From NCBI GenBank assembly GCA_937936325.1, contig CALGWV010000136.1, forward strand, positions 1 to 32,441: a DNA stretch of 32,441 nucleotides, in the 5' to 3' direction. Below are positions 7,584 to 28,946 of the stretch, piece by piece. The translations under genes were made by a program, and so were the position numbers. Below the pieces are notes generated by a model. That model saw only the letters and a list, made by a program, of their open reading frames with translations. It had not been told where the DNA came from and did not search any database. This stretch comes from an uncultured Bdellovibrionales bacterium. GTDB lineage: Bacteria > Bdellovibrionota > Bdellovibrionia > Bdellovibrionales > UBA1609. The first letter of the stretch is position 1, and the number at the start of each line of letters is the position of its first letter.

Positions 7584-7750
7584 TATACTGGACGCACTTA
7601 GGTTTTCCCTATTTCTGAGGAAGTGATTTTTTAATCAAATTTGATGCGAGAGCCTGAAATACTTGCCAAAGCACATTTGAAGGTGATCAAGTTAAATTTG
7701 ATAAAAAAGCGCTCCTCAGAAATTGGGAAAACCTAAGTGTGTTCAGTATA
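7584..7750. repeat. Long-hairpin element A, copy 1
   Basis: 38-bp arms TATACTGGACGCACTTAGGTTTTCCCTATTTCTGAGGA vs (rc) TATACTGAACACACTTAGGTTTTCCCAATTTCTGAGGA, inner stem and conserved loop. Confidence 0.93.
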
Positions 7751-10060: not shown

Positions 10061-10246
10061 CCCAGATCCGTGGATAAGCGGCGGTAAAAACCCATGAAAG
10101 AAACGCCCCCCCTCAGCGTCGTGCTCAAAATGTTTTCTTTTCACCGTACACGTGAGTACGATTCAAGAAAAAATTTCTGCGCTAGACACTGCTGAAACAC
10201 GTTTGATGGGTTTTCCCTCGCCGCTTATCCGCGAACCTGGATCTTT
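10061..10246. repeat. Long-hairpin element C (full copy)
   Basis: Arms CCCAGATCCGTGGATAAGCGGCGGTAAAAACCCAT / ATGGGTTTTCCCTCGCCGCTTATCCGCGAACCTGGATCT. Confidence 0.88.
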
Positions 10247-15259: not shown

Positions 15260-15290
15260 GATTATAAACCCCTCAAGAAATTTGCTGTTG

Positions 15291-15453
15291 TACTGAGCTC
15301 ACTTAAGATTTTACGATGTCTGACGAAGTGATTTTTTAATCAAATTTGATGCAAGAGCCTGAAATACTAGCCTTAGCTCATTTGAAGGCGAACAAGTTAA
15401 ATTTGATAAAAAAACGCTCGTCAGACATCGTAAGGTCTTAAGTGCGTTTAGTA
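15291..15453. repeat. Long-hairpin element A, copy 2
   Basis: Same loop as copy 1 (GATGCAAGAGCCTGAAATACTAGCC...CATTTGAAGG) with different but mutually complementary arms ACGATGTCTGACGA / TCGTCAGACATCGT. Confidence 0.93.
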
Positions 15454-15686
15454 TGTATTCTTTATCGGTTCAAAACGAGGGAGATTGAGATAATGTTTAA
15501 AAAAAAAGAGGATTTTTGAATATTCAGGTAAAAACTGACAACAGTTCAACACCACTGTGACTAAGTATTAGTCACTTCAGAATTTAACATTAGTTTAGTT
15601 ATTTACTTCTGAAGGACATTTAAAGAACCAAGCTGATGCCTGCTTCCTTAAAAAGAAATAGTGATTTTTCTAAATATTTAGAAAAA

Positions 15687-16255: not shown

Positions 16256-16433
16256 AAGCATCAATCCAAGAGATTTTCAGCGCGTACGCCTAAAAAAAAA
16301 ACTATAAACGTCGCGACAGCGCGTATCGTGGTGTGTGATATGTACCCATAGCACATTCCAGGAGACACGCTGCGGTCGAAAATGAGTTTTTTTTTATAGG
16401 CGTACGCGCTGAAAACCTCTTGGATTGATGCTT
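16256..16433. repeat. Long-hairpin element B
   Basis: ~46-bp arms AAGCATCAATCCAAGAGATTTTCAGCGCGTACGCCTA(A)n / rc with one mismatch and short indel. Confidence 0.93.
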
Positions 16434-21838: not shown

Positions 21839-22201
21839 TTAATCAATCCATTTCATCATGATGAAGCGCTGGACCTTGATAAATAAATTGAATTTTATAT
21901 CACCATTTTCTAGTTTTTTCTGAAATTCTTGGTCCTCTCTTGGGCCTTTACCTTTACTCACTGCTAAATAATCTCTACCAGAATCATTAATACTTACTAC
22001 ATTAGGTATTTTGCTAATCATTTGAAGAATTTTAGCACCTTTTACAGGCTGACTTAGAAGACGTGCTATAGACTCATCAGAGTGTAAGCCAAGGAAGCAA
22101 TGATAACCTTCCGATGCTTTGTTTTTACACATTTCCTCCGTCAATTGGACTGTAACTGTTTGTTGAACTACTGGTATTGTAGCTTTAATACGGTTCAACA
22201 C
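21839..22201 (-). CDS. Hypothetical protein, start lies within IS end
   Basis: 120-aa ORF; GTG start and first codons overlap the IS-end repeat at 22190-22218, so it may be 5'-truncated. Confidence 0.4.
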   Translation of the reverse strand: MLNRIKATIPVVQQTVTVQLTEEMCKNKASEGYHCFLGLHSDESIARLLSQPVKGAKILQMISKIPNVVSINDSGRDYLAVSKGKGPREDQEFQKKLENGDIKFNLFIKVQRFIMMKWID

Positions 22202-22550
22202 TGAAATTGGGGGTAAGCCTATTCAATAGTCTAGTTTGAGCCACTAAGAGTACGCATCATTTTGAAGCTGAACGACCTCAGAAATACACTTTTTATTAGA
22301 ACTAAAATAAGAGGTGAAAGAATGAACCAAAAAGACATCGTTGAAAGAATATTTGATCTGCACAAGTCTAATTTTATTGTTAAAGACGTGAAGGTATTTA
22401 AAGATCATATCGTAGTTTAGGTGGCTCTAGATCCTTCAAAATCTCGCATCTGCTCAAAGTGTAAAGCCAAAGCCAAATCCGTCCACGACTACAATACGGT
22501 TCAACACTGAAATTGGGGGTCAGGCTGGGACCCAATTTTAGAAGAGAACC
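22192..22550 (+). mobile_element. Decayed ISL3-like insertion sequence remnant with terminal inverted repeats
   Basis: GGTTCAACACTGAAATTGGGGGT left, GGTTCTCTTCTAAAATTGGGTCC right (rc); contains a transposase N-terminal fragment. Confidence 0.65.
22322..22510 (+). pseudogene. ISL3-like transposase N-terminal fragment with in-frame TAG
   Basis: MNQKDIVERIFDLHKSNFIVKDVKVFKDHIVV*VALDPSKSRICSKCKAKAKSVHDYNTVQH*; CxxC zinc-finger-like part typical of the ISL3 N-terminus. Confidence 0.6.
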
Positions 22551-24484: not shown

Positions 24485-24577
24485 ATTATTAACAATGCCT
24501 AGGTGCTTACGGAAGGTTCTTATTGGTTTTAGATGGTTTAAGTTTAACTCAAGTTCAACTGAGCTCAGACTCAACTT

Positions 24578-24603
24578 GGCTCTCTTCTGAAAATGGGGGT
24601 AGC
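24578..24603 (+). repeat. Solo ISL3-like terminal repeat GGCTCTCTTCTGAAAATGGGGGTAGC
   Basis: Matches IS ends at 111-140 and 22525-22550. Confidence 0.5.
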
Positions 24604-24818
24604 ACTTTTTGCAGATAGAGCCTGGAGTTGCCTCAATGAGATTTTAGGTTACCACAGTTCAAGTTCTTTAAAGATGAAACTTTTAAAATCAACTGAAATC
24701 TTCCACACCCCCTAGAGTTATACTTTTCTTAAAAATAATTTTAAATAGTCTGAAAAAAAATTTTCCACTACTCAGAATAAAACTAGCGCGATCCCTAAAT
24801 TCTATTTACACTGATCTT

Positions 24819-25828: not shown

Positions 25829-27304
25829 ATGAAAATTTTAGGTATTAATAAATTAGGTTGGAATATAGAGCTCTTAGAAATTGAAACCACTTTTTTACGT
25901 GGTCGCCCCATTATTCAAATAGTGGGCTTACCCGATGTCCATGTGAAAGAGGGGCTCTTAAGGATGAGGTCCGCATTGGAGCATCAGGGTTATGCTTGGT
26001 CTTCGACCAAACAAGTTTTGATTAATTTGTTACCTCAAAAACTTAAGAAGCTCGGATTAGGTTTGGAGCTCTCAATGTGCCTTTCTTATTTGATAAAGTC
26101 TGGACAAATTAATGAGCCACCCAAAACAGCTGATAAAAATTTTCTTGTGGTCGGAGAACTAGGCCTTGAAGGAGATATTAAAACCCCATCAATATTAGAG
26201 TCCTTAACACCTGAACAATTTTCAGGAACTCTTATCACTGGATTTGGGGTAGAGCTTAAAGTCCCGGCCTGTAGATTTAAAAATATAGGAGAGCTCAAAG
26301 ACCCTGAAAAATGGATTCTTGAGGAACCTCAAAAAAAAAGAACGTCTCTCAGTTTTCTAAAAGCGACACCACCGCAAGATGATAAGGACTGGCCCACATC
26401 AATGAAGCGGCAGATGAACTTACTCGCTTTAGGTAAGCATTCCGCTTTACTTGCGGGTCCAGCAGGTCATGGGAAAAGCACTTTCTTAAAATCTCTTTGG
26501 AGTCAGTTACCTCAGCCCCAAGCTGAAGATTATAATGACTGGCTCCGCCTAGAATACGATATACCTGAAATGAAACATCTGAATTGGGCTCCCCTTGTCG
26601 CCCCACACCACAGCATAACGGCAACGGGTTTAACTGGAGGCGGACCTCAGTGCCAACCCGGTGAGATCAGCCGTGCTCACAAAGGACTTTTAGTTTTGGA
26701 TGAGCTATTAGAGTTTCAACCCAAAGTTCTTGAAAGTTTGCGAGAGCCCATTGAAGAAAAAAAAATACGACTCACAAGAGGGGCACAGAGTAAAACTTGG
26801 CCTTGTGATTTCCAGTGTTTAGCCACAACAAACTTATGCCCTTGTGGAAAGTGGATGCCTGGGCAAAATGTCTATTGCGGACGAAGCCTAGGGAGGTGTA
26901 AATCTTATTTAAACCGTCTTTCCGGACCTCTTTTAGATCGTTTTGAAATTCTGATATTTTTTAATCAAAAAATTTTTCATAACTTCGAAGAAAATAACCC
27001 ATTGAAACCCACAGAAGTCAAAACACAAGAATCACTTAAGGAGGCCATTAACTTTAAGGAACAAAGACTTAAGGAAGATATGAGAACGATCTGTGAAACT
27101 GAAAATAAGTCCACCCATATCGCCGCCAAGGATCTCAAGTTTTATATGACAGGCATAAGCTCAGCTCGACGTCTTAAGGCCTTTAAAAATATTTCAAGAA
27201 GCCTCGCAGATCTGGATTTAAGTGACACAATTAAGCCTAAGCATATGGATGAAGCCTATACTTATAGCATTGAAAACTTTGAACAGCTCCAAAAAATGAG
27301 CTAG
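25829..27304 (+). CDS. ComM/YifB-like Mg-chelatase-type AAA ATPase
   Basis: GPAGHGKST Walker A, GLLVLDELLEFQPKVLESLREPIEEKKIRLTRG, ATTNLCPCG, YLNRLSGPLLDRFEI. Confidence 0.92.
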   Translation: MKILGINKLGWNIELLEIETTFLRGRPIIQIVGLPDVHVKEGLLRMRSALEHQGYAWSSTKQVLINLLPQKLKKLGLGLELSMCLSYLIKSGQINEPPKTADKNFLVVGELGLEGDIKTPSILESLTPEQFSGTLITGFGVELKVPACRFKNIGELKDPEKWILEEPQKKRTSLSFLKATPPQDDKDWPTSMKRQMNLLALGKHSALLAGPAGHGKSTFLKSLWSQLPQPQAEDYNDWLRLEYDIPEMKHLNWAPLVAPHHSITATGLTGGGPQCQPGEISRAHKGLLVLDELLEFQPKVLESLREPIEEKKIRLTRGAQSKTWPCDFQCLATTNLCPCGKWMPGQNVYCGRSLGRCKSYLNRLSGPLLDRFEILIFFNQKIFHNFEENNPLKPTEVKTQESLKEAINFKEQRLKEDMRTICETENKSTHIAAKDLKFYMTGISSARRLKAFKNISRSLADLDLSDTIKPKHMDEAYTYSIENFEQLQKMS

Positions 27305-27361
27305 ACACTGCTGAAGCAGGTTTGATGGGTTTTCCCTCGCCACTTATCCGCGGATCTGGGG
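27300..27361 (+). repeat. Solo half-copy of long-hairpin element C
   Basis: GCTAGACACTGCTGAAGCAGGTTTGATGGGTTTTCCCTCGCCACTTATCCGCGGATCTGGG matches 10181-10243. Confidence 0.9.
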
Positions 27362-28779: not shown

Positions 28780-28946
28780 TATACTGAACGCACTTAGGTT
28801 CTCCCTGTTTCTGAGAAGTGCTTTTTGATCAAATTTAATTTGATCACCTTCAAATGTGCTAGGGCAAGTATTTCAGGCTCTCGCATCAAATTTGATTAAA
28901 AAATCACTTCCTCAGAAATAAGGAGAACCTAAGTGCGCCCAGTATA
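28780..28946. repeat. Long-hairpin element A, copy 3 (core inverted relative to copies 1 and 2)
   Basis: TATACTGAACGCACTTAGGTTCTCCCTGTTTCTGAG arms; core AAGTATTTCAGGCTCTCGCATCAAATTTGATTAAAAAATCACTT is the reverse complement of the copy 1 core. Confidence 0.93.

Follow-up and report, generated by a model that had tools for sequence, protein, structure and literature searches.

A dispersed long-hairpin element with a conserved folded core and interchangeable self-complementary arms in a bacterial phylum, probably the Bdellovibrionota

The window, meaning the whole 32,441-nt stretch analysed from an uncultured Bdellovibrionales bacterium, contains three copies of a 167-bp hairpin element (element A; Table 1), a span in which the outer TA dinucleotides are included. 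Element A is very probably a dispersed element with a maintained fold, and this fold is probably one of RNA rather than of single-stranded DNA. The favored and narrowly probable explanation is that of a MITE-like, non-autonomous element that would be moved in trans and would carry a structured module whose fold, as sense-strand RNA, would be under selection. More tentatively, element A may belong to a class of elements, probably in the Bdellovibrionota, that is defined by a folded tip and not by sequence. In this class, an RNA or single-stranded DNA core read by a putative partner would sit on interchangeable self-complementary stems, and mobile families that expand would exist alongside single host loci that are conserved.

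A covariance model of the core matches the window at exactly three places (E 4e-15 to 1e-13), while all remaining matches, including those to the reverse strands of the three copies, have E values of 0.12 or above. The initial annotation had already listed three copies, and these are present, although its span for copy 2 (15291-15453) was too short by two bases at each end. The arms of the window copies measure 36-38 nt and are 86-92% complementary. As had been noted, they vary in sequence yet stay complementary: CTGAGGA/TCCTCAG in copy 1 corresponds to CTGACGA/TCGTCAG in copy 2, and TTTTCCC/GGGAAAA in copy 1 to TTCTCC/GGAGAA in copy 3. The earlier description of the inner stem and loop is likewise correct. 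Plain recent identical duplicates are ruled out by the identity to copy 1, which is 82% for copy 2 and 92% for copy 3. When folded as RNA, copy 1 reaches -88.8 kcal/mol against -32.0 +/- 4.0 for shuffled sequences (z -14.1) and copy 2 reaches -82 (z -15.4), so that both are far stabler than shuffled sequence; copy 1 folded as DNA gives z -12.6. The genes for a DUF2799 protein and for EF-G converge on copy 1, the gene downstream of copy 2 encodes a Fis-type HTH domain, and an alcohol dehydrogenase gene and an esterase gene flank copy 3.

Table 1. Positions of element A and its parts in the window.
Feature	Positions	Strand	Remarks
Copy 1, whole element	7584..7750	+	model R1 195 bits, E 8e-46
Copy 1, left outer arm	7584..7621	+	38 nt, 92% complementary to right arm
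Copy 1, conserved core (AT-rich inner stem, tandem G.A steps, capping stem)	7626..7709	+	core model R3 E 3.6e-15
Copy 1, right outer arm	7713..7750	+	pairs with left arm
Copy 2, whole element	15289..15455	+	re-paired arms of different sequence; TG flanking both sides
Copy 2, conserved core	15332..15414	+	core model R3 E 1.3e-13
Copy 3, whole element	28780..28946	-	orientation opposite to copies 1 and 2
Copy 3, conserved core	28821..28903	-	core model R3 E 6.3e-15

In the source genome, a draft assembly of 2.06 Mb in 138 contigs (99.3% complete), element A occupies about 35 places, partial and decayed copies counted, all of which are intergenic. Many contigs break within a copy, as is expected of a repeat. 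The ends are sharp to the base, the flanks are unrelated between copies, and the unit has the structure TA / TACTGRRCRCACTTAGG ... CCTAAGTGYGYYCAGTA / TA. TA stands outside both ends in 10 of the 15 readable full copies, which, together with the number of places and the sharp ends, bears out the TA termini and transposon-like dispersal first proposed from the window. Among the exceptions are one copy flanked by AA/AA and copy 2, flanked by TG/TG, and these fit a 2-base target duplication better than a TA belonging to the element. Both the 2-bp duplication and transposition are inferred from ends and flanks. The insertion context in genome G022 is CTAG. Duplications longer than TA are limited to a single subfamily in genome G029 and are partly explained by remnants of element ends in the flank. 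At two G029 loci (L141 and L142), the flank outside the 5′ end resembles the 3′ end of the element, giving flanking repeats of 9-12 nt that could be the abutted ends of an older copy. At another locus (L160, G210), an element is bracketed by a perfect 16-bp inverted repeat (GATCAAGTTCAAGGTT ... AACCTTGAACTTGATC), the two halves of which lie about 37 bases beyond the element's ends, as if the element had inserted in a terminator-like palindrome.

Several general features of bacterial MITEs are found here, namely a length below about 200 bp, multiple copies, lack of coding sequence, sharp ends, unrelated flanks, and terminal inverted repeats. None of 71 copies from 15 genomes overlaps a gene. 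In the same set, 26 copies share the orientation of the upstream gene and 38 oppose it, with 31 and 32, respectively, for the downstream gene. In view of this lack of orientation bias, a role in cis for one neighboring gene was rejected.

The initial annotation had raised, as not shown, an assignment to the IS630/Tc1-mariner type. Element A would then be an ordinary MITE: its arms would serve a DDE transposase as long terminal inverted repeats, its interior would be a relic, and its fold would have no function. This explanation can point to the TA target, the terminal inverted repeats, the CTAG context in G022, and one IS630-type transposase gene in the source genome. That gene, the only one of its kind there, is truncated, adjoins other IS sequence, and differs in its ends. 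However, a scan of the draft assembly for the element's ends, with up to three mismatches allowed, found no longer element with matching termini, and DDE_3 was not found in 8 of the 11 other carriers, among them genomes that contain 8-12 copies. The assignment is therefore not upheld, and the explanation is improbable. Many MITEs have no resident partner.

Other candidate partners fare no better. Y1_Tnp, the RAYT domain, was not found in the source genome. RVT_1 was found neither there nor in G022, G026, G206, and two other carriers, on which grounds mobility by reverse transcriptase was rejected, and DDE_Tnp_1 was not found in G026, G206, and G305. Judging from these incomplete assemblies, none of the four families (IS630-type, Y1_Tnp, RVT_1, and DDE_Tnp_1) looks like a common partner. 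Carriage by phages was rejected, as none of 10 inspected IMG/VR pattern matches is such a hairpin and further IMG/VR scans were empty; carriage by plasmids was rejected on zero plasmid matches. One match to the element ends in Desulfobacterales is isolated.

Distant relatives of element A are detected in further families of the phylum when its covariance model is used. The arms of these relatives bear no sequence relation to those of element A, and mostly none to each other, but pair near-perfectly, and it is the inner part that the relatives and element A have in common. The core reads GCGCGACGACGAAGGACTAGC-loop-GCTAATTCGAGGAGGAGC in most relatives and GCGAGAGCCTGAAATACTTGC-loop-GCACATTTGAAGGTGATC in element A. 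It is laid out as two or three tandem GA/GA steps with pairs between them, followed by a small capping stem. The core covariance model, which spans this inner part of about 84 nt, matched 21 of 369 genomes of the phylum in its first version and 52 of 369, in 31 genera, after refinement; the latter prevalence is an estimate, since the refined model was built from the finds of the first. The matches in 52 genomes agree with the earlier view of the loop as a shared conserved module. Across the phylum the interior is the best-conserved part and the ends are not conserved, which counts against an ordinary IS630-type MITE. A search of Rfam 15 returned no family at the gathering threshold, the only matches being shape-like ones to miRNA precursors far below it.

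Pairing in the core is supported by covariation. In a set of 43 distinct cores, each of the 25 modelled pairs has undergone compensatory change on both sides, and the cells with both-side changes number 238, compared to 85.6 after shuffling and at most 116 when the partners are slid. The strongest covarying column pairs mostly fall in one helix register, and 6 of 10 RNAalifold core pairs reach E<0.05 against a tree-aware null. Across genomes, 83 double changes on the same branch were counted where 11 were expected. One pair of the capping stem is G.U in 29 of the 43 cores and A.C in none.

Within element A, both-side changes occur at 19 pairs against 10.0 expected by shuffling, a comparison that disregards relatedness. 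For this reason, changes were also reconstructed on a tree and redistributed at random, a procedure of the authors' own used in place of R-scape itself. Under this tree-aware null, double changes that keep the pair on one branch amount to 21.6 where 4.5 +/- 2.0 are expected. Compensatory change beyond phylogenetic expectation, as claimed from the window, thus holds within the genome and also has tree-aware support across genomes. A stricter per-pair test on 27 similar element A sequences found no single significant pair, their divergence being too small.

Excess double changes could in principle arise by mutation alone, given that template switching can create and maintain stems (PMC8794818). 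If switching between the arms kept these quasi-palindromes paired without selection on the fold, the abundant same-branch double changes in element A and across genomes would follow. However, such a process should affect both strands equally, whereas the tree-aware reconstruction of element A shows changes from Watson-Crick pairs to G.U at the neutral rate (43.7 vs 41 expected), with changes to A.C depleted (26.9 vs 42), as are those to other mismatches (59 vs 78.5). It would also wipe out the conserved G.A mismatches, and it leaves both the conservation of the core and the identity across species unexplained. Mutational maintenance on its own is thus quite improbable, though template switching probably contributes to the abundant same-branch double changes. 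The hairpins resemble those attributed to template switching (PMC8794818) in their multibase compensatory stem changes, but this form of maintenance covers the arms at most and leaves core, strand asymmetry, and mobility unexplained.

A G.U pair in one strand corresponds to A.C in its complement, so the asymmetry points to selection on the sense strand. G.U outnumbers A.C by 94 to 33 in 19 element A copies and by 88 to 36 over all copies in other genomes, where copies are not independent of one another. The latter count comes down to only 9 genomes against 5, and the asymmetry is reversed in G026 and weak outside the source genome. The RNA reading draws on the asymmetry in the source genome together with the one conserved G.U capping pair. 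Because of the 9-to-5 split and the reversal in G026, a DNA hairpin read by a recombinase is a serious rival, albeit an unlikely one. According to this alternative, extruded single-stranded DNA of the sense strand would be read by its shape by a recombinase or HUH-type nuclease, as in attC sites, and the fold would be a signal for mobility and not an RNA. The stability of tandem G.A steps and G.T wobbles extends to single-stranded DNA, and this counts for the alternative, as does the lack of any orientation preference relative to genes. Further support comes from G029, in which several subfamilies within one genome have unrelated arms and nothing in common except the core and the hairpin shape, making a sequence-specific, end-binding transposase an awkward common partner.

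As would hold for the element under this alternative, integron attC sites fold in a strand-specific manner, have arms that are free in sequence but paired, and are recognized by structure. In the present element, however, conservation is confined to the tip instead of the ends of the stem, and the elements are single and dispersed. The attC boxes RYYYAAC and GTTRRRY are absent from the stem ends and no cassette array was seen in the window; the missing boxes, like the missing Y1_Tnp gene, argue against a DNA-level signal. A single-copy orthologous hairpin that is apparently non-mobile bears on the same question. In genus g37, where copy number per genome is low, the copy at about 2.087 Mb is identical in 111 of 112 columns in all three of G171, G174, and G037, while its surroundings show 87% identity over 6.6 kb. 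This copy is under strong constraint, which better fits a function in the host than a signal for mobility. Its coordinates match none of 8 attack-phase sRNAs (PMC3627812), provided that G171 is Bdellovibrio bacteriovorus strain HD100. At a second orthologous site of the genus, G185 has the complete hairpin, whereas G183 has the same stem but lacks 45 core bases. A copy common to G183 and G185 occupies a third site, where its arms differ at a few positions, partly in paired fashion. The element also exists in a Y-shaped form of about 290 bases, in which two hairpins, their cores inverted relative to each other, sit on one outer stem that surrounds both; it was found at L156, L166, and L167 in G206, at L127 in G227, and at L249 in G351.

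The remaining alternative is a coding role, in which a short peptide (M-R-E-P-E-I-L-A...) would be read from the loop through the right inner stem, in the manner of certain palindromic elements of Rickettsia and enterobacteria. A frame is indeed open from the loop ATG to the right-arm CCTAA in several element A copies. However, the frame is broken by stops (copy C126a), lost starts (the C48a group), and differences in capping-loop length between genomes, while the structure is kept. These frame-breaking changes in otherwise well-kept copies refute peptide coding of the loop, leaving it scarcely credible.

Under the favored explanation, the element would be moved in trans by a separate enzyme and inserted at TA, or CTAG in G022, where 2 bp would be duplicated at each insertion. 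Folding to the hairpin would take place in the sense strand, most likely at the RNA level, and a putative partner would bind the hairpin's core of tandem G.A steps and capping stem. The arms would need only to pair, such that their sequence drifts and their complementarity stays. This pairing would be kept via selection, probably with help from template switching during replication.

Several known families share parts of this description. Like element A, the Correia/NEMIS, ERIC, and RUP elements are non-coding and mostly intergenic, span 100-200 bp, carry terminal TA and terminal inverted repeats, and form a stable stem-loop if transcribed (PMC2229807). However, each is defined by sequence and belongs to one genus or family, whereas the present structured core occurs in 31 genera with wholly different ends and arms. 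RUP also has IS630-Spn1, while no IS with ends matching the present hairpin was found. Compared by description, YPAL/RU-2 of Yersinia is likewise a long hairpin (168 bp), intergenic, dispersed, and of low to moderate copy number, but it lacks terminal TA, has internal repeats, and makes target duplications of 3-26 bp where mostly TA alone is seen here (PMC2229807). None of these elements is described in that survey as having interchangeable arms around a structured core that recurs across a phylum (PMC2229807). REP/REPIN sequences with RAYT are dispersed palindromes moved in trans, as element A would be, though REPs measure 20-40 bp against 167 bp here, and no Y1_Tnp gene accompanies element A in its genome (PMC2817692; PMC3116915). 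A review of MITEs does not mention Bdellovibrio (PMC10969869), and a search of the open literature on inverted or palindromic repeats in Bdellovibrio found no matching description.

Bacterial MITEs are usually recognized by the sequence of their ends, whereas here ends and arms change freely provided that they pair, and what the 31 genera have in common is a small structured tip. Should recognition of the tip take place in RNA or in folded single-stranded DNA, there would be a partner protein to look for. As the arms have been rewritten many times in unrelated genomes, the family offers a natural test of whether palindromes are maintained by selection or by template switching. Its absence from Rfam means that genomes of this phylum, which consists mostly of predatory bacteria (the phylum being inferred), are unannotated for the element.

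Other repeats accompany element A. An unrelated second long hairpin lies at window positions 16256-16433, with 46-nt arms that are 96% complementary and 86 nt apart; it has no match to the core model. A 63-nt direct repeat containing CTTATCCGCG occurs at 10178-10240 and 27297-27359 (90% identical), and the similar CTTATCCGCGGATCTGGG is found just outside an element copy at L011:2532 and near an end fragment in L051. A dispersed short repeat around GGTTCAACACTGAAATTGGGGGT is present in both orientations at 113-140, 22187-22220, 22493-22526, and 24573-24606. Finally, very short palindrome-like remnants, TACTGGACACACTTCAGTA and TACTGAACACACTTCAG, lie upstream of genes in L055 near 2280 (contig C45) and L057 near 3417 (contig C72), looking like the element cut down to its two ends.
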